Below, one piece after another: positions 49,767 through 56,536 of a stretch of DNA of 64,000 nt. The DNA comes from Alphaproteobacteria bacterium LSUCC0684 (lineage in GTDB: Bacteria; Pseudomonadota; Alphaproteobacteria; Puniceispirillales; UBA1172). The translations under genes and the position numbers were made by a program. The stretch spans positions 558,001-622,000 of the forward strand of contig CP166130.1 in the NCBI GenBank assembly GCA_041228335.1, given 5' to 3'. Below the pieces are notes generated by a model. It searched no databases. It saw nothing but the letters and a program-made list of their open reading frames with translations, and was not told the origin of the DNA. Numbering within the stretch: the first letter of the stretch is position 1; each line of letters starts with the position of its first letter.

Positions 49767-49780
49767 TGGTGCTGGCGGAG
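49767..49780 (+). other. attL-like core, direct repeat of the tRNA-Thr 3' end
   Basis: TGGTGCTGGCGGAG is identical and in the same orientation as 56461-56474, which forms the CCA end and T-arm-side acceptor of tRNA-Thr. It would be the left attachment site created on integration. Identity stops after this 14-mer (left GATGG, right AGACT), so the crossover core is short or the left copy has drifted. Confidence 0.65.
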
Positions 49781-50171
49781 GATGGTGACACCCCTGTCAG
49801 GAACACAACCAGACTGAAAAGTCAGTAATTCCTTAGTGTTATTATCTTCTTTGGTTGTGTCAACAGGCACATTTTGTACGTCAATTTGTGCGTCAATAAG
49901 TGACAAACAGAAGACACATACACCCCTGATACCCCGATGTGTGTTTAATGGAATCTCCAGCGCCGCTGACGGGCTTTGTATACTTGTGTGTGATTGGGAT
50001 TCTGAATAACCCAAACGGCCTGTATGAATCTTATATGGCGATTGAGAGCATGTCTGAGTGGTAAGGAATCCCTTAGCCAATTTGCTGGGGATTTTAAGGG
50101 CTGGTTAGTGACACCCCCACCCAAAGAAATGGTATCAGTTTGTATATATAAATATCAGTGGAAGTTTGGTG
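49767..50171. repeat. Left arm of a 405-bp inverted repeat
   Basis: The arm matches the reverse complement of 53972-54376 over its whole 405 bases, with no difference found by eye. Its outer end is the 14-bp tRNA-derived core and its inner end is CAGTGGAAGTTTGGTG. Both arms hold the same open frame (about 105 codons shared) that reads out through the tRNA-like end. I regard that frame as incidental. Perfect identity implies recent duplication, gene conversion or a functional need. After the arm, 50172-50347 is AT-rich with no gene seen. Confidence 0.9.
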
Positions 50172-50347
50172 ACAAAATGCAAGGGGGATTCATCAAGTCT
50201 AAGTAAAGACAACTTAAAAAATACTTCTATTTTACTTTGAGATTATAAAATACGAATTTCATTTTGGTCATATTGCTAACCAAAGAATATTTTATAAAAT
50301 TATATAACATCTTGCAGAACTTAATATGTCTGGATAGTTAGTCTGAT

Positions 50348-50788
50348 TTATCCTTTTATAATGCTTAAACAAAAATCAAATTCTTCTTTCACAGTTCCAG
50401 AAAAAATAGAACCGGTTTTGAGTTGAGATTGTTCTATCTGAACATAGTATTGGTCAACATAATACAAATATGCAGTCTGAAGTTGTCTAATTGTCTCTTC
50501 TACAGTTGTCATTTTTTTCTCAGCAAGAATAACGCCTGCGTTTGAAAGAACGTTTACGGATAAATTAGCAAGTTCCTCTCTTTGATTTTGCATAGAAGAT
50601 GGCAAGTATTTAGCATACGCACCTATTAATCCCGAGCAACGTTGAAGCAATGAACTAACATGATATTCATCTTGCATATCATTACTTTGAACATATTCAA
50701 AAACTGTCCCAATTTCATTGGCTTTAGCATCATTAAATTCAAAATATATGACACCAAATAACACTACACCTATAAAGAATTTTAACAT
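50348..50788 (-). CDS. Small membrane-anchored or secreted protein of the element
   Basis: This product of about 146 aa starts at MLKFFIGVVLFGVIYFEF, a hydrophobic leader that is either a signal peptide or an anchor. A helical, polar mature part with two cysteines (LLQRCSGLIG and FDFCLSIIKG) follows. The ribosome-binding site is poor. No family was recognised. The gene diverges from the polymerase-like operon across about 310 bases. That gap holds only a doubtful 67-codon frame and the repeat cluster described at 51016. A role in surface exclusion or superinfection is conceivable but unsupported. Confidence 0.5.
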   Translation of the reverse strand: MLKFFIGVVLFGVIYFEFNDAKANEIGTVFEYVQSNDMQDEYHVSSLLQRCSGLIGAYAKYLPSSMQNQREELANLSVNVLSNAGVILAEKKMTTVEETIRQLQTAYLYYVDQYYVQIEQSQLKTGSIFSGTVKEEFDFCLSIIKG

Positions 50789-51015
50789 ATGCACAGCCCA
50801 ACTTTTGATATTAAATTTTTATACATATTAATATTACATAATAATCAGTCAATTCTAAGATGATTGCATAAACATCCAAACTACCAGCGGTATAACTATC
50901 TGAATAGCAATTATCACTTCCATTACTGTACCTCTTCAAAACTCCTACCCGTAATGAGGGAGAAGTTGATATGTCTATAAATATACGTGAAGATAGTACA
51001 TGACACAGAAGCAAA

Positions 51016-51174
51016 TGTAACCTGTTACAAACTTGTAACAGACTTGTTACAGGTTGGTTGTTTCTTTTCTCTTTGTCCTATTACAGGTGGTTACAAGCAT
51101 AATGAAAGAAGGAAAACGTTACGATTGGTATCCTGTTCTTTGTCATTCTTTCTTTGATGAACTTGTTACAAGTT
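51016..51174. promoter_or_regulatory. Cluster of TGTTACA-type repeats around the polymerase-like gene start
   Basis: Palindromes built on TGTAAC/GTTACA recur. 51016-51029 is TGTAACCTGTTACA. 51035-51051 carries TGTAAC and GTTACA with a six-base spacer. Single GTTACA units occur near 51090, and 51160-51174 is AACTTGTTACAAGTT, inside the coding region. At least six half-sites fall within 160 bases. This looks like iterons of a replication origin or an autoregulatory operator for the operon. Confidence 0.6.
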
Positions 51175-52580
51175 TGTATCAGGAAGTAGAAACTAAGAAG
51201 GGATGGAAAAATAAATCTAAACCCCGTGAACAGTCACTTAGACCACTAATAAAACATGTTCTTTCATCATTATATTCTTGCTTTTATTCTTTTCCGATAG
51301 GTTCTGGTTATGTGTCATATCCATTAAGAGCAGATGCATATGACACAAAAAGTGAATACAAGATAAATTTCAATTTAGAATATGCTTCAGCATTGCTCCA
51401 TGTGTTGAAAGATAAAAAATGGATAACAGTAATAGAAGCAAAGAACCAACAATCTTACACAAGAATAAAAGCATCTGGTGGTCTTAAAAGTATATTTGAA
51501 GAGCATGGTTTTAAATGGTCACCACAAGAACCTTTACCCTTACACAAAATAGTTCAGGTTCGAGATAGAGTTCCTAATACTGATAAGAGTTCAAAGAAGA
51601 AGTGGAAGAAGGTTGAGATGCCGCTTCCTAATGAACCTATTGTGAAAGAATATCAGGAAGAATTATTCAAATATAATTCCTTTATGTGTCAACACTGTGT
51701 GTCACTTGATGTCACAGATAACCTGCTCTTTGAAATAGGCAAAGAGATGAGGGATAAACAGAATAATAAAAAGCAACATCACAACTGGATGGCTGAAACA
51801 GAGGAAGAAAATAAGATTGGCTACTTAGATATTTCAAGTGTTCAACTGAGAAGAATATTTTCTAGAAATAGCCTGACAAAACATGGAAGATTCTATGGAG
51901 GATGGTGGCAATCCATTCCTTCTGATTATCGTTATCTCATACGAATTGATGGAAAGTTAACAGTTGAATTGGATTATTCTGGAATTTCACTTCGTATTTT
52001 GTATGGACTTGCGGAAGTGCCTTATGAAGGAAATCCAGACATCTATGATTTGAGTGATGGTTCTTCAACAGGCATGAAATGGAAATTTGAAAAAGATTCT
52101 CGTCAAAGAGAACTTGTCAAAAAATATCTTAATGCTCTTCTGAATGACGAAGATGGAACCTTTAGCCTTACCCATGGTGAACATAAAGAATTGGGCTTTA
52201 ATAGTAATCAAATCAAAGAAAGATTCTTAAAAGTTCACTCTCCAATTGCTCATTTAGTTGATGCTAAAATCGGCTTGAAAACACAATTCTATGACAGTCA
52301 AATTGCTATGGATATTATGAAACTTTTCTTATCTATAGATGAAGTGGTTCTACCAATCCATGATGGTTTTATAGTACCTGCAGGATGTGTTTATCTTTTG
52401 GAAGATGAAATGGATAATATCTTTAAAAGAAAATTTGGAGATAAAATCAAAATATCTCATGAAGGTTTGAAATCTCCTGAAGTTTCTAATTTAAACAAAA
52501 TTGAAGCACCATTATATGAAGATTCATTAATGGAAAAATATGTAGAGGAGTGGAAAATTAGATATGAATATTTCAGATAG
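51102..52580 (+). CDS. Family-A-polymerase-like protein of the mobile element
   Basis: This protein of about 492 aa starts at MKEGKRYDWYPVLCHSFF, after a GTGG-rich leader; a TTG at 51054 is the alternative. The C-terminal 250 residues show polymerase motifs: motif A VELDYSGISLRILYGLAE with Asp291, a helix with R336 and K340/K341 (RQRELVKKYLNALLN) that could be motif B, and motif C VVLPIHDGFIVPAG with His420-Asp421. These resemble PolA (DYSQIELR, HDE) and T7-type RNA polymerase (HDSF). The N-terminal half is basic and may bind the TGTTACA repeats. No 3'-5' exonuclease motif is seen. It is the first gene of a four-gene operon. Function as DNA polymerase, primase or RNA polymerase is undecided. 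Confidence 0.6.
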   Translation: MKEGKRYDWYPVLCHSFFDELVTSLYQEVETKKGWKNKSKPREQSLRPLIKHVLSSLYSCFYSFPIGSGYVSYPLRADAYDTKSEYKINFNLEYASALLHVLKDKKWITVIEAKNQQSYTRIKASGGLKSIFEEHGFKWSPQEPLPLHKIVQVRDRVPNTDKSSKKKWKKVEMPLPNEPIVKEYQEELFKYNSFMCQHCVSLDVTDNLLFEIGKEMRDKQNNKKQHHNWMAETEEENKIGYLDISSVQLRRIFSRNSLTKHGRFYGGWWQSIPSDYRYLIRIDGKLTVELDYSGISLRILYGLAEVPYEGNPDIYDLSDGSSTGMKWKFEKDSRQRELVKKYLNALLNDEDGTFSLTHGEHKELGFNSNQIKERFLKVHSPIAHLVDAKIGLKTQFYDSQIAMDIMKLFLSIDEVVLPIHDGFIVPAGCVYLLEDEMDNIFKRKFGDKIKISHEGLKSPEVSNLNKIEAPLYEDSLMEKYVEEWKIRYEYFR

Positions 52581-53280
52581 ACAACTTCAAGAAATAGAAA
52601 CTATTTATTCAGAAACAAAAATATTTTTTGGAGGGTTTAAAAACAATTTTTTGACTAAACCAAATGCTTTAAATGGAAAATTAGGTTTTTGTATTCTTTA
52701 TTCTCCTCCAATCTCTGATGCAGAAATTATGGTTATTGGTCAACAGCCATCAAGTTTTGGTTTATTTGACGAAATAATGATGGATGGAAATATTCCTAAA
52801 ATAAACTCATATACTGAGCATGAATATCCTTTTGCAAAAAAGTTAACGGATATTTTTGATAACCAAAGTGATAAACAAAGTTTATTAAAAAATTGCATAG
52901 GACTTAATATTTGGTTTTACCAAAAAAAGAATAACTTCAATTTATCCGATGTTGAGGAAAAAAAAATTAAAGATTTTTGTCAAAACAAAACAAAAGAAAT
53001 TATTAAAATTTTAAAACCAAAAACAATTTTTGTAGTTGGTATAGGTGTTTTCAATCGGCTGATTGTTGGTCGTGAAGTTAAACAAAAGATTCATACAATT
53101 AAAAGCATTAAAAAAAATAAGAAAAAACAAACTTATTTCGCTGAAGGATTATTATGGAATGAAATTCCAATTTTTGGTTGTCCTCAATTTGCAGCAGAAG
53201 GATATTATAAAAAAGGTGGTGGCTTTCACGAAGGTGTGTCGATGTGTATAGAAAAAATAAATGATATTTTAAGAAATTAG
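52564..53280 (+). CDS. Uracil-DNA-glycosylase-fold-like protein
   Basis: This 238-aa protein overlaps the end of the polymerase-like gene by 17 bases. The order of elements recalls the UDG superfamily: ISDAEIMVIGQQPSSFG (compare the GxNPG-type water-activating loop) near residue 52, an Asn-containing segment NCIGLNIWFYQ near 113, ILKPKTIFVVGIGVFNRLIV near 153, and FGCPQFAAEG near 215 in the place of the HPSP-type leucine loop. Sequence is divergent and the catalytic residues cannot be fixed. It may process DNA copied by the neighbouring polymerase-like protein. It could instead be an unrelated alpha/beta protein. Confidence 0.42.
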   Translation: MNISDRQLQEIETIYSETKIFFGGFKNNFLTKPNALNGKLGFCILYSPPISDAEIMVIGQQPSSFGLFDEIMMDGNIPKINSYTEHEYPFAKKLTDIFDNQSDKQSLLKNCIGLNIWFYQKKNNFNLSDVEEKKIKDFCQNKTKEIIKILKPKTIFVVGIGVFNRLIVGREVKQKIHTIKSIKKNKKKQTYFAEGLLWNEIPIFGCPQFAAEGYYKKGGGFHEGVSMCIEKINDILRN

Positions 53281-53291
53281 GTGCTTAATGA

Positions 53292-53723
53292 ATGACAATT
53301 TCAACTGAGTTTGAAACCATAATTGTATGTAAACCAATTTTGGAACTGCGTTTTAAAGGTGGTTGGAAAACTTGGTTAAAGAAATTTTCTATGGAAGATG
53401 ATGGAGAACTTTCTCGGATATCTGCCATGAGTGGGCATGATATTTCTTATTTAGAAAAGAAAATACAAAAATTAGGTTTACTTCCGCCTAATATTTCTGA
53501 GGATAAGTTTCATTATCGAGATTACTTTATTTATTCTTTGGAATATAAACCGCACAGATTACGTGGCTTCCAGTCATTCACTATTCCTGATTGGTTGATA
53601 TGGAATGAACCGTTAATGAATAAGATGTCACTTTTTGAAATAGTTAAACTTCCATTAGATTCATTAAAAACTCACCCTGCAAGACCAACATTTGACTTCA
53701 ACAAAAAGGCTGTAATTAGATGA
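53292..53723 (+). CDS. Hypothetical protein of the element operon
   Basis: This 143-aa protein has segments LELRFKGGWKTWLKKFSMED, HYRDYFIYSLEYKPHRLRGF and FTIPDWLIWNEPLMNKM. No known family was recognised. It is rich in aromatic and charged residues and has no membrane segment. It lies 11 bases after the UDG-like gene and overlaps the next gene by four bases, so it is part of the same operon. Confidence 0.6.
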   Translation: MTISTEFETIIVCKPILELRFKGGWKTWLKKFSMEDDGELSRISAMSGHDISYLEKKIQKLGLLPPNISEDKFHYRDYFIYSLEYKPHRLRGFQSFTIPDWLIWNEPLMNKMSLFEIVKLPLDSLKTHPARPTFDFNKKAVIR

Positions 53724-53950
53724 TTTATACATTTGACTGGAAAGATGTAATCCATGGAAAGATAGAAATTGAAGCCCAAAATGGCCATGAAGCAGAAAAG
53801 ATTTTTAATAATATGGGCTTGATTGAGAGGTTGTCTGCATCCGAAGTAGATTGTGACAATAATACTTTAGTTATTAAATTTGTAGATGCTGGCATTGGTG
53901 ACTTGCATACAAGAGAAGAATGGGAAGAAGAAGTAAGAAACTATACTTGA
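53720..53950 (+). CDS. Small acidic hypothetical protein of the element operon
   Basis: This 76-aa protein begins MIYTFDWKDVIHGKIEIEAQ and continues NGHEAEKIFNNMGL. That is a short beta-beta-alpha pattern like the small DpnD/PcfM-type domains, in which a strand ending in EA is followed by a helix with A-E. The overall fold would be a tiny alpha/beta domain. It overlaps the upstream stop by four bases (ATGA) and ends 21 bases before the right 405-bp repeat arm. Confidence 0.55.
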   Translation: MIYTFDWKDVIHGKIEIEAQNGHEAEKIFNNMGLIERLSASEVDCDNNTLVIKFVDAGIGDLHTREEWEEEVRNYT

Positions 53951-53971
53951 TGAAACACCCCTATATTTCTC

Positions 53972-54376
53972 CACCAAACTTCCACTGATATTTATATATA
54001 CAAACTGATACCATTTCTTTGGGTGGGGGTGTCACTAACCAGCCCTTAAAATCCCCAGCAAATTGGCTAAGGGATTCCTTACCACTCAGACATGCTCTCA
54101 ATCGCCATATAAGATTCATACAGGCCGTTTGGGTTATTCAGAATCCCAATCACACACAAGTATACAAAGCCCGTCAGCGGCGCTGGAGATTCCATTAAAC
54201 ACACATCGGGGTATCAGGGGTGTATGTGTCTTCTGTTTGTCACTTATTGACGCACAAATTGACGTACAAAATGTGCCTGTTGACACAACCAAAGAAGATA
54301 ATAACACTAAGGAATTACTGACTTTTCAGTCTGGTTGTGTTCCTGACAGGGGTGTCACCATCCTCCGCCAGCACCA
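53972..54376. repeat. Right arm of the 405-bp inverted repeat
   Basis: It is the reverse complement of 49767-50171. It begins CACCAAACTTCCACTG at the operon side and ends at the tRNA-like core CTCCGCCAGCACCA. The last 14 bases are shared with the 72-bp repeat that follows. There is no convincing gene in the arm; the open frame at 54063-54389 is the same repeat-borne frame as in the left arm. Confidence 0.9.
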
Positions 54377-54434
54377 CCTCACCATGTAAGTAACTGAAAA
54401 GTCTGTATTATTTATATTGACTGCTCAGGTGACG
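54363..54434. repeat. Left arm of a 72-bp inverted repeat (with the third, inverted att core)
   Basis: 72 bases match the reverse complement of 56403-56474 exactly as read. The outer 14 bases are CTCCGCCAGCACCA, the tRNA-Thr 3' end in inverted orientation, followed by CCTCACCATG and GTAACTGAAAAGTCTG. The arm overlaps the end of the nuclease-like gene. It brings the number of tRNA-derived cores in the element to three. Confidence 0.88.
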
Positions 54435-55247
54435 CACTAGTTTCTTTACATATTCGAATGTGAGAAGTTTATCCTTGGCATTTTCCATGTAATCACTTTT
54501 TTTGTCAGATGCATGTATGTCATCTTTCAAAATATCACTAATCATTTTCATCAGTGCATTCTGGATAGAGTTATCTAGAGGTGTAGATGAATAATTATTG
54601 AATTTTTCATTCAAGATTTTAATCATGTCTTCCGTGTTTGAAGCAGAAAGACTATGTTTAACCATCATAGGAATTGCCAATTTAAGGGCTTCACTGATTA
54701 TTTGATTATCTCTACCGGTTATATCCTTGCTAACGATGTTATCTTGATAAATACCTATTAAATCAGTGATTTCTCTTCCCAAATTACCTGTTTTTATTTC
54801 TTTATTATTTTGTAAATCGCTAATTATATCACCTATAAAAATAGTATTGATATGCTTCTTGATTTCCAGAAGTTCTTCTTGGTGTCTTACAACTCCATGA
54901 ACAAGGCAAAACTCCCAATTAACATCTTCAGTTTCACCATAAAGATTACTTCTCATTAATGATTTCTTGTCTGATTTAAACTTTTTTTCTATCCACTCTT
55001 CCGTTGAAATGACCAACTCATCCAGAGTTCTTTTTTTTGCGCTGTTGTTTCCAGTTATGTAAGCAACAGGATTATAAGAAACTTGGACTTCGTAATGCAC
55101 GTATTTGGGTGAAGAGTTTTTAGATTGAATACCTAATAAATCTATCTCATCAACACCTTTCTTTAGACCTCTTATTGTAAAGAAACCTTTTGAGTTCAAC
55201 CATTCTTCCACCAATGTTTCTGCTATTAATCCCAAGTGACACTCCAT
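54408..55247 (-). CDS. PD-(D/E)XK-like putative nuclease of the integrase module
   Basis: This 279-aa protein has an N-terminal pattern LIAETLVEEWLNSKGFFTIRG, then VDEIDLLGIQ, then VHYEVQVSYN. It fits the E...D...E-x-Q core of restriction-endonuclease-like folds (E-x-K variants with Q) found in repair, Holliday-junction and defence nucleases. The C-terminal 150 residues are helical and unrecognised. It starts 6 bases after the integrase stop and ends within the 72-bp repeat. A defence cargo or an element-processing nuclease are both possible. Confidence 0.5.
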   Translation of the reverse strand: MECHLGLIAETLVEEWLNSKGFFTIRGLKKGVDEIDLLGIQSKNSSPKYVHYEVQVSYNPVAYITGNNSAKKRTLDELVISTEEWIEKKFKSDKKSLMRSNLYGETEDVNWEFCLVHGVVRHQEELLEIKKHINTIFIGDIISDLQNNKEIKTGNLGREITDLIGIYQDNIVSKDITGRDNQIISEALKLAIPMMVKHSLSASNTEDMIKILNEKFNNYSSTPLDNSIQNALMKMISDILKDDIHASDKKSDYMENAKDKLLTFEYVKKLVRHLSSQYK

Positions 55248-55253
55248 TTTGTA

Positions 55254-56399
55254 TTAGTTGGAAATCATGGCTAACCATCTAAATTTTATTTCATTTGGAA
55301 ATCCAATTCCATAAGTTTGTCCAACACCTTCTGTTGTCCATCCACCAATGGCGTCAATGATGTCTGAAGGACACTCTACAGCCCTTAGCCTATCTCTTAA
55401 TCCATGACGTAATCCATGGATGACATACTCTTTACCAATAACTGTCTTTATCCATTTGTTTAATGCTGCACTGGCTGAGTTGGAGTTTGTGTTAGTTCCA
55501 TCACAGTATTTAGGAAAAGCAAACACTGTATGATGTTTAACTACTTGTTGTGCTGCCCATAAAGACACACCAACCAAGGGAACAGTTCTTTTACTGCTCT
55601 TTGTCTTTAACCTTCTCCAAGGATGTGGCTGTATGATTAGGTGAGGGATGTCTGTGTCCAATTGTATGTCATCTAAATGAAGACCAACTGCTTCTGCTAA
55701 TCTCATTCCTGTGTCTGACAGAAGAGCAACAAGCCATCTCAATTGGTCATTCTTATCAACACAAGCGTCTTGCAGGGTGACAAGGGTTGTATCCACGATT
55801 GGTAGTCGTTTGTTTTCTTCCTGCTCACCCTGATGCAAGTACACATTAGCAAAGGCATTGCTTCCTTCTATGCCCATCTCTCTCATAACAAGATTGATAA
55901 TGGAGCGAAGAGAACCAAGGATACGTTTGACACTCCCAAGGCTAAGGTCTTTTTTGAATAGTTTATCTCTAAAGGATGCCGCATCAGCAGAAGAGTAAGC
56001 AGTAATAGGTTTATTGCCCAATGCCTTTACCAGATACTTGGTGTTTCTTTTTACAGCACGAACAAAGGTTGGATTACTGTTCCTCTTTATTCGGAGATAA
56101 ATATCTGCTGCTTCAAGAATGGTAGGGCTTGAATGTTCATTCTCTTTTCTATCCTCAACAAGCAGATGCAAGGCAGGAACATCCATCTCCTTCAATCTCA
56201 ATCCTAACCAATAGTCATCAAGTCTTTGATTGATGGAACTTGCTGTTCTTAAAGCATGGTTATGAGAACGTGTCTTCAGGCTAAGGCTAACCCTGTCTGA
56301 CTTGTAATATTGCTGTAAGTCTGAAGGAACACGTCTGACAAAGTGATAGATACCTTGTCTAATACGGAGATGAGAAGAGGAGTTTTTGTACGTCAACAT
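55254..56399 (-). CDS. int: Tyrosine recombinase (integrase)
   Basis: This protein of about 381 aa starts at MLTYKNSSSHLRIRQGIYHF; a TTG seven codons upstream would place the start inside the 72-bp repeat. The N-terminal LRIRQGIYHFVRRVPSDLQ is typical of phage-type integrases of Proteobacteria, followed by a SAM-like core-binding domain. The catalytic domain shows the first arginine in SDTGMRLAEAVGLHLDDI, the HxxR box in VIHGLRHGLRDRLRA, the GGW position and the nucleophile in GQTYGIGF. It adjoins the tRNA-Thr att site and is transcribed in the same direction as the tRNA, 62 bases downstream. Confidence 0.93.
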   Translation of the reverse strand: MLTYKNSSSHLRIRQGIYHFVRRVPSDLQQYYKSDRVSLSLKTRSHNHALRTASSINQRLDDYWLGLRLKEMDVPALHLLVEDRKENEHSSPTILEAADIYLRIKRNSNPTFVRAVKRNTKYLVKALGNKPITAYSSADAASFRDKLFKKDLSLGSVKRILGSLRSIINLVMREMGIEGSNAFANVYLHQGEQEENKRLPIVDTTLVTLQDACVDKNDQLRWLVALLSDTGMRLAEAVGLHLDDIQLDTDIPHLIIQPHPWRRLKTKSSKRTVPLVGVSLWAAQQVVKHHTVFAFPKYCDGTNTNSNSASAALNKWIKTVIGKEYVIHGLRHGLRDRLRAVECPSDIIDAIGGWTTEGVGQTYGIGFPNEIKFRWLAMISN

Positions 56400-56402
56400 G
56401 TA

Positions 56403-56474
56403 CGTCACCTGAGCAGTCAATATAAATAATACAGACTTTTCAGTTACTTACATGGTGAGGTGGTGCTGGCGGAG
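56403..56474. repeat. Right arm of the 72-bp inverted repeat, overlapping the tRNA-Thr 3' end
   Basis: It is the reverse complement of 54363-54434. Its right 14 bases (56461-56474) belong to the intact tRNA-Thr gene including the encoded CCA. The remaining 58 bases lie between the tRNA and the integrase and probably hold the integrase promoter or arm-type binding sites. Confidence 0.88.
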
Positions 56475-56536
56475 AGACTCGAACTCCCAACCGCCCGATT
56501 ACAAATCGGGTGCTCTACCAATTGAGCCACGCCAGC
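56464..56536 (-). tRNA. trnT: tRNA-Thr (UGU)
   Basis: On the minus strand the acceptor stem GCTGGCG pairs with CGCCAGC. The D-arm reads GGCTCAATTGGTAGAGC, the anticodon stem-loop CCCGA-TTTGTAA-TCGGG with anticodon TGT, and the T-arm GGGAGTTCGAGTCTCTC. CCA is encoded immediately after (56461-56463). The gene is intact and serves as the integration target of the element on its 3' side. Confidence 0.95.

Follow-up and report, generated by a model that had tools for sequence, protein, structure and literature searches.

The 64,000-nt window analysed here (contig CP166130.1 of Alphaproteobacteria bacterium LSUCC0684, positions 558,001 to 622,000) contains a 6.7-kb island across 49767-56474, in which the GC content is 26–42% compared with ~60% in the surrounding DNA (Table 1). 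The island adjoins a tRNA-Thr gene and carries a tyrosine integrase gene (int) that starts 40 bp away from the tRNA and whose product (Int) matches PF00589 (3.5e-12) and DUF6538 (5.8e-18). The 3' end of the tRNA is repeated directly at the far end of the island, giving attachment (att) cores attR and attL and the arrangement typical of tRNA-integrating tyrosine-integrase islands. Between the ends lie a polymerase gene and several small genes, some of which overlap on one strand, and family searches with the element's proteins found no virion, conjugation or mobilisation genes. A search for the empty site through synteny of the left flank returned homologues without a nearby tRNA-Thr. The original prediction, made from the bare sequence, had already recognised the AT-rich island, the integrase next to the tRNA, the direct 14-bp copies, the gene overlaps and the lack of virion and conjugation genes, all of which we find as described. 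It went on to propose a new class of element by analogy with pipolins, which combine a family-B polymerase, a tyrosine recombinase and tRNA att sites. What it overlooked is the main finding of this work, namely a third att core, inverted and inside the element, together with two pairs of inverted repeats.

Table 1 Features of the element and its target in the 64-kb window.
Feature	Position	Strand	Remarks
attL core	49767-49780	-	direct 14-nt copy of the tRNA-Thr 3' end; marks the element's outer end
L arm, outer copy	49767-50198 (to 50201 if extended)	+	432-435 nt, 98% identity
TGYRCGTCA pair, 12 bp apart	49875-49895	+	outer L arm
Protein, 148 aa	50348-50794	-	no family assigned; signal-peptide-like start
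TV-Pol, family-A-like polymerase, 492 aa	51102-52580	+	R263, D291, D313, R336xxxK340, D421
Orphan protein, 238 aa	52564-53280	+	uracil-DNA glycosylase (UDG)-like motif by eye only
Protein, 143 aa	53292-53723	+	no family assigned
Protein, 76 aa	53720-53950	+	no family assigned; 3' end reaches the inner L arm
L arm, inverted inner copy	53945-54376 (from 53942 if extended)	-	forms internal attP' with the R' arm and core
TGYRCGTCA pair, 12 bp apart	54248-54268	-	L arm of internal attP'
Third att core, inverted	54363-54376	+	centre of the complete internal attP' (repeat search)
R arm, inverted copy	54363-54434 (to 54442 in the 80-nt version)	+	downstream of orf279
orf279	54408-55247	-	no family assigned; in the integrase half (B); 3' end enters the inverted R arm
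Tyrosine integrase, 388 aa	55254-56420	-	TTG start; DUF6538 and Phage_integrase
TGYRCGTCA pair, 12 bp apart	56387-56407	+	R arm
R arm	56403-56474	-	adjoins the tRNA and the int start; 72 nt at 100%, or 80 nt at 96% if extended to 56395
attR core	56461-56474	-	final 14 nt of tRNA-Thr, CTCCGCCAGCACCA
tRNA-Thr (anticodon TGT)	56461-56536	-	integration target; 3' end is the att core (ARAGORN)

Both inverted-repeat pairs share the inverted core, and in the repeat search both lie far above chance expectation. Read along the minus strand from 54442 to 53942, the order is R arm, core, L arm, as expected for the junction that forms when excision joins both ends of the element. In its integrated form the element therefore has, in addition to attL and attR, a complete attP in inverted orientation. 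The arms also contain the motif TGYRCGTCA in pairs, and six of the eight matches in the window fall within them; these pairs are putative arm-type Int sites. The int start and R arm have a close relative elsewhere: 175 bp (56236-56410) are 97% identical to L208:25-199 of G008 (L and G numbers are our labels for loci and genomes), which belongs to another genus and where the copy adjoins tRNA-Phe, unlike the tRNA-Thr of the window. This likeness suggests a recent transfer with a change of target.

The layout recurs widely among relatives of this integrase. These were collected from other alphaproteobacteria as well as 40 genomes belonging to the same order, and a profile score set the family (>400) apart from other integrases (<280). 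Inverted repeats flank 52 of 67 family integrases, a count in which L047 and G030a (one contig) enter twice, vs. 0 of 24 other tyrosine integrases at comparable loci (25 were listed, one of them with a coordinate error). The repeats that flank int, corresponding to the R arm, are 28–288 bp long (mostly 57–121 bp), and in nearly all tRNA-adjacent cases their outer end lies within the last 14–24 nt of the tRNA; seven of the 15 family integrases without repeats sit at contig ends. Of the 32 elements in which 1.5 kb or more lies beyond the internal site, 17 also have a pair of L-arm repeats (142–1203 bp) that shares this core and encloses the next segment; an L-repeat listed for G734b|35644 was discarded, as it spans two neighbouring convergent elements. 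An independent set of integrases, mainly from one large family that we take to be Rhodobacteraceae from L040, L044, L049 and L052, gave inverted repeats at 18 of 21. On the megaplasmid of Ruegeria sp. TM1040 (NC_008043.1, a complete record), integrase WP_011537162.1 lies at a tRNA-Phe with cores ordered +, -, +, both arm pairs (R, 85 bp; L, 1148 bp) are 100% identical, and one BRO gene is present in two inverted copies with a type I restriction-modification (R-M) system between them. In a tree of 85 sequences a clade supported at 100/100 carries the repeat trait throughout, apart from scattered tips that lack it, and the outgroup does not have it. Contigs of G791, G818, G925, G621, G130 and others often break off no more than a few hundred bases from the internal att, as would be expected if inverted repeats break assemblies. 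Since they seem to do so, with many contigs ending inside, islands of this kind have probably been reported too rarely.

The internal core agrees with the end of the local tRNA at 14/14 positions in 38 of 41 tRNA-adjacent cases, which together comprise 24 different cores and seven tRNA types. L022 (tRNA-Leu) and L047 (tRNA-Arg), for example, have similar R arms and different cores, with both sites of each element sharing one core. To judge from such comparisons, when the target of an element changes its internal site changes too, and recombination between the two sites would require exactly such matching of cores. The arm repeats show concerted evolution, with a median identity of 1.00 within elements vs. 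0.87–0.97 between closest relatives. One could regard the inverted repeats as functionless by-products of recombination or replication in otherwise ordinary tRNA islands, which would explain why arm lengths differ, why arms extend into genes and why a minority of the family has no repeats. We consider this unlikely, because the repeats are near-universal in a deep clade and associated with none of the 24 other integrases, internal cores follow the tRNA target, the arms hold paired putative arm-type sites and the repeats evolve in concert.

Excision by attL x attR recombination would give a circle that carries two inverted attP sites and falls into two halves. Half B would consist of int (here also orf279) between two complete inverted attP sites, each in the order R arm, core, L arm, and half A would be a cargo or replication module, here the polymerase (a TV-Pol, see below) with its neighbours. 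The genome of the window provides an informative pair of further islands. L122:8856-19539 (G000:C1), at tRNA-Asn, is a second double-att element with a Prim-Pol and an AAA_25 helicase and no TV-Pol. L243:1-11513 (G000:C1:1791500-1803012) carries a second TV-Pol with an unrelated integrase at tRNA-Met, and its ends form only a 41-bp direct repeat without the inverted layout; it also has what look like type I R-M genes and is a conventional island, useful as a control. The inverted layout without TV-Pol in the former and TV-Pol without that layout in the latter indicate that TV-Pol is an interchangeable module. A link between repeat geometry and TV-Pol was ruled out, since TV-Pol elements with other integrases, including L243, have no such inverted repeats; the att-site architecture goes with the integrase and not with the polymerase. 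Many sister elements lack TV-Pol, and other A halves contain type I R-M systems (L044, TM1040), a Z1/HATPase set that we take to be a defence system (G016), or transport and metabolic genes.

Half A is found in both orientations. G734a and G734c, whose integrases are 93% identical and both face away from tRNA-Ser, carry a 5.1-kb cargo (90% identical) that is inverted in one relative to the other, and the Prim-Pol/helicase block is inverted between L122 and an element of G025 (L115/L154 being named as the comparison). Inversion of the cargo is supported by these alignments. G734a and G734b have integrases that are only 54% identical and A interiors that are 88% identical, and at both ends the breakpoints lie ~135 bp away from the core; cargo also passes between integration modules. 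These data raise the question as to whether the inverted att sites serve cassette exchange or phase inversion, with Int or host recombination flipping or swapping cargo, B staying anchored, and no amplification taking place. The constant orientation of B, the variable orientation and highly variable content of A, and the G734a/G734b pair would all fit. However, the breakpoints of that pair lie outside the core and so do not reflect a simple Int reaction there, and replication genes in many A halves point to an extrachromosomal phase, so that we regard exchange or inversion without amplification as rather doubtful.

The polymerase of the window matches phrog_4756 (4e-32) and no convincing Pfam or NCBIfam family. 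Its 80 relatives, which come from alpha-, beta- and gammaproteobacteria as well as a few other phyla, share the motifs GRFYGGWWQ (R263), E-x-DYS (D291), D313, R336xxxK340, a DS..A helix and HDSF (D421), in an order that parallels GRLSS..PNLQ, motif A, motif B and motif C of Pol I. Within 36 of the sequences R263, D291, D421 and R336xxxK340 are invariant and D313 is conserved in at least 90%. An AlphaFold (AF2) model built from these 36 has a predicted local distance difference test (pLDDT) score of 85 and retrieves family-A DNA polymerases from the PDB with a probability of 1.00 and modest template modelling (TM) scores; the replication protein of the virophage Zamilon is also among the structural matches. 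A PDB sequence search with the polymerase profile and a Pfam search of the 36 polymerases gave nothing useful. Together, the motifs and the confident model confirm that the 492-residue protein is a divergent family-A enzyme, in line with the motifs A and C noticed originally.

TV-Pols are minimal family-A-like polymerases of 400–600 residues, with a conserved Arg in a beta-hairpin, two catalytic Asp, an Asp in the fingers and an RxxxK motif; together with lambda-type integrase or resolvase genes they were described as novel mobile elements, often near R-M genes, for which TV-Pol was proposed as the prim-pol (Iyer, Abhiman and Aravind 2008, PMC2579912). The window's protein has the size, the family-A core and the residue set, and its relatives have the kind of mobile-element neighbourhood, with an integrase, resolvase or transposase, that characterises TV-Pol: a tyrosine integrase is present in 62 of 84 TV-Pol loci, and a further 22-locus cluster is taken from its sequence to be serine resolvases. 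The TV-Pol subfamily profile found no match in the whole phage Ma-LMM01, a TV-Pol bearer named in PMC2579912, so that the protein fits TV-Pol by its features and not by sequence clustering. CcPol of SCCmec, a related A-family polymerase, primes DNA once bound to its partner MP (PMC10061031).

These results bear directly on the proposal of a pipolin-like self-replicating element that forms a new class through a new polymerase. Polymerase, integrase and tRNA att sites do co-occur, and the family-A fold is confirmed. Yet the polymerase has the characteristics of TV-Pol, elements with TV-Pol and integrase have been known since 2008 (PMC2579912), many sister elements have no TV-Pol and the UDG-like gene never recurs, making such a class very improbable. 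What remains of the analogy is an integrative element with its own non-PolB, replication-type polymerase, which does not define a class. We would be equally surprised if the island were what is left of a phage or of a phage satellite: large Vibrio and Aeromonas phages do encode relatives of TV-Pol, but the element has no virion gene and no member of the Int family turned up in 50,697 phage records or in IMG/VR, and this origin was rejected.

The usual picture is that of one attP per integrative element, and a large alphaproteobacterial clade that keeps two inverted ones requires a life cycle of another kind. In the yeast 2-micron plasmid, Flp flips DNA at inverted FRT sites, and a flip during replication drives double-rolling-circle amplification. 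The predicted circle resembles that plasmid in having two unique halves split by inverted repeats, each with a target of the circle-encoded tyrosine recombinase (as identified from att cores and arm sites), and both relative orientations of the halves exist (G734a/G734c; L122 vs. L115/L154). We therefore lean, with slightly more confidence than doubt, towards a two-half circle with an inverted attP pair that is flipped by Int and may be amplified like the 2-micron plasmid. Int would insert the circle at the tRNA 3' end via the attP by the int start, leaving the other attP intact and inverted inside. After excision, Int would recombine the identical attP pair in the circle and flip A relative to B; were this to happen during replication by the element's polymerase module, one fork would be turned and double-rolling-circle amplification could precede reintegration or transfer. 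This proposal draws on the architecture, its recurrence, the matching cores, the concerted evolution of the repeats and the occurrence of A in both orientations. Amplification is its least certain step, which the replication modules of several elements make attractive without proving it.

Several points weigh against this life cycle. The circle, the flip isomers and a change in copy number are predictions from sequence, and in the internal attP' of the window the R' copy has lost one arm site while the other is degenerate. Many A halves carry no replicase gene, so that amplification cannot depend on TV-Pol in all members. Homologous recombination by RecA across the long repeats could be another route to inversion of A, although it is not obvious how this would maintain the match between the 14-nt cores and the target. 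Finally, int faces away from the tRNA in 57 of 57 tRNA-adjacent cases, whereas equal use of both attP sites would put half of the int genes in reverse. Silencing or an influence of transcription may be involved; as a conjecture, the reverse orientation would leave int by an intact attP and its promoter, or send antisense transcripts of int into the tRNA.

That these elements represent an unrecognised class, a bacterial counterpart of the 2-micron plasmid in which Int-driven inversion at an inverted attP pair amplifies a circle with swappable TV-Pol or Prim-Pol modules, is a possibility that we put forward tentatively. They differ from the 2-micron plasmid in being bacterial, integrated at a tRNA, equipped with attP sites that have arm sites and served by another recombinase family, and in that amplification is here a proposal. 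Pipolins are similar in having their own polymerase, a tyrosine recombinase and tRNA att sites, but the att geometry differs, and in place of a self-priming family-B DNA polymerase the present elements have a TV-Pol with family-A fold and motifs or a Prim-Pol. In shufflons, the tyrosine recombinase Rci flips segments at inverted sites and thereby varies a pilin gene. Segment flipping by a tyrosine recombinase at inverted sites, presumably catalysed by Int in our case, is thus common to both, while shufflons are not integrative and vary the pilin gene. For TV-Pol elements, the main text of PMC2579912 mentions direct repeats at the ends of one element, in contrast to the inverted double attP here, and the present architecture also exists without TV-Pol. 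Tycheposons, according to the secondary description in PMC10872708 (citing the original work), occur in marine bacteria, are bounded by tRNAs, encode a tyrosine recombinase and carry metabolic cargo, all of which our elements share; the passages concerned do not mention an inverted internal attP. No description of integrative elements with an inverted double attP was found in the open-access library that was searched, subscription papers lying outside the search, and the element belongs to a large and apparently undescribed group. What is new is the att-site architecture, the polymerase family having been known since 2008. The double inverted attP would readily account for the cargo of marine SAR116 and Rhodobacterales genomes that can be inverted and interchanged, such as restriction systems, transporters and replication modules, and provides a concrete bacterial system for testing the Futcher inversion model of copy-number amplification.

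The remaining proteins of the element (238, 143, 76 and 148 residues, and orf279) received no assignment in family searches. The 238-residue protein, for which a UDG fold had been suggested, has no PDB match, searches of the plasmid and phage collections and of 189 other genomes revealed no relatives, and its single-sequence structure model is unusable (pLDDT 33), leaving that fold unsupported. Its gene is absent from all other TV-Pol loci, where the integrase is the sole recurring neighbour, which disposes of a fixed polymerase/UDG gene set. For orf279, a D...E-x-Q pattern seen by eye suggests a candidate PD-(D/E)XK nuclease. At four TV-Pol loci with other integrases (L056:9209-11689, L068:9357-11602, L023:1094-6213 and L077:7564-11028), inverted repeats of 214–468 bp surround or overlap the TV-Pol gene itself and perhaps mark an origin or a separate unit. 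L131, L134 and L128 (G027, G022) contain tandem B-A-B arrays with alternating att orientation, which look as if extra circles had integrated at existing att sites.

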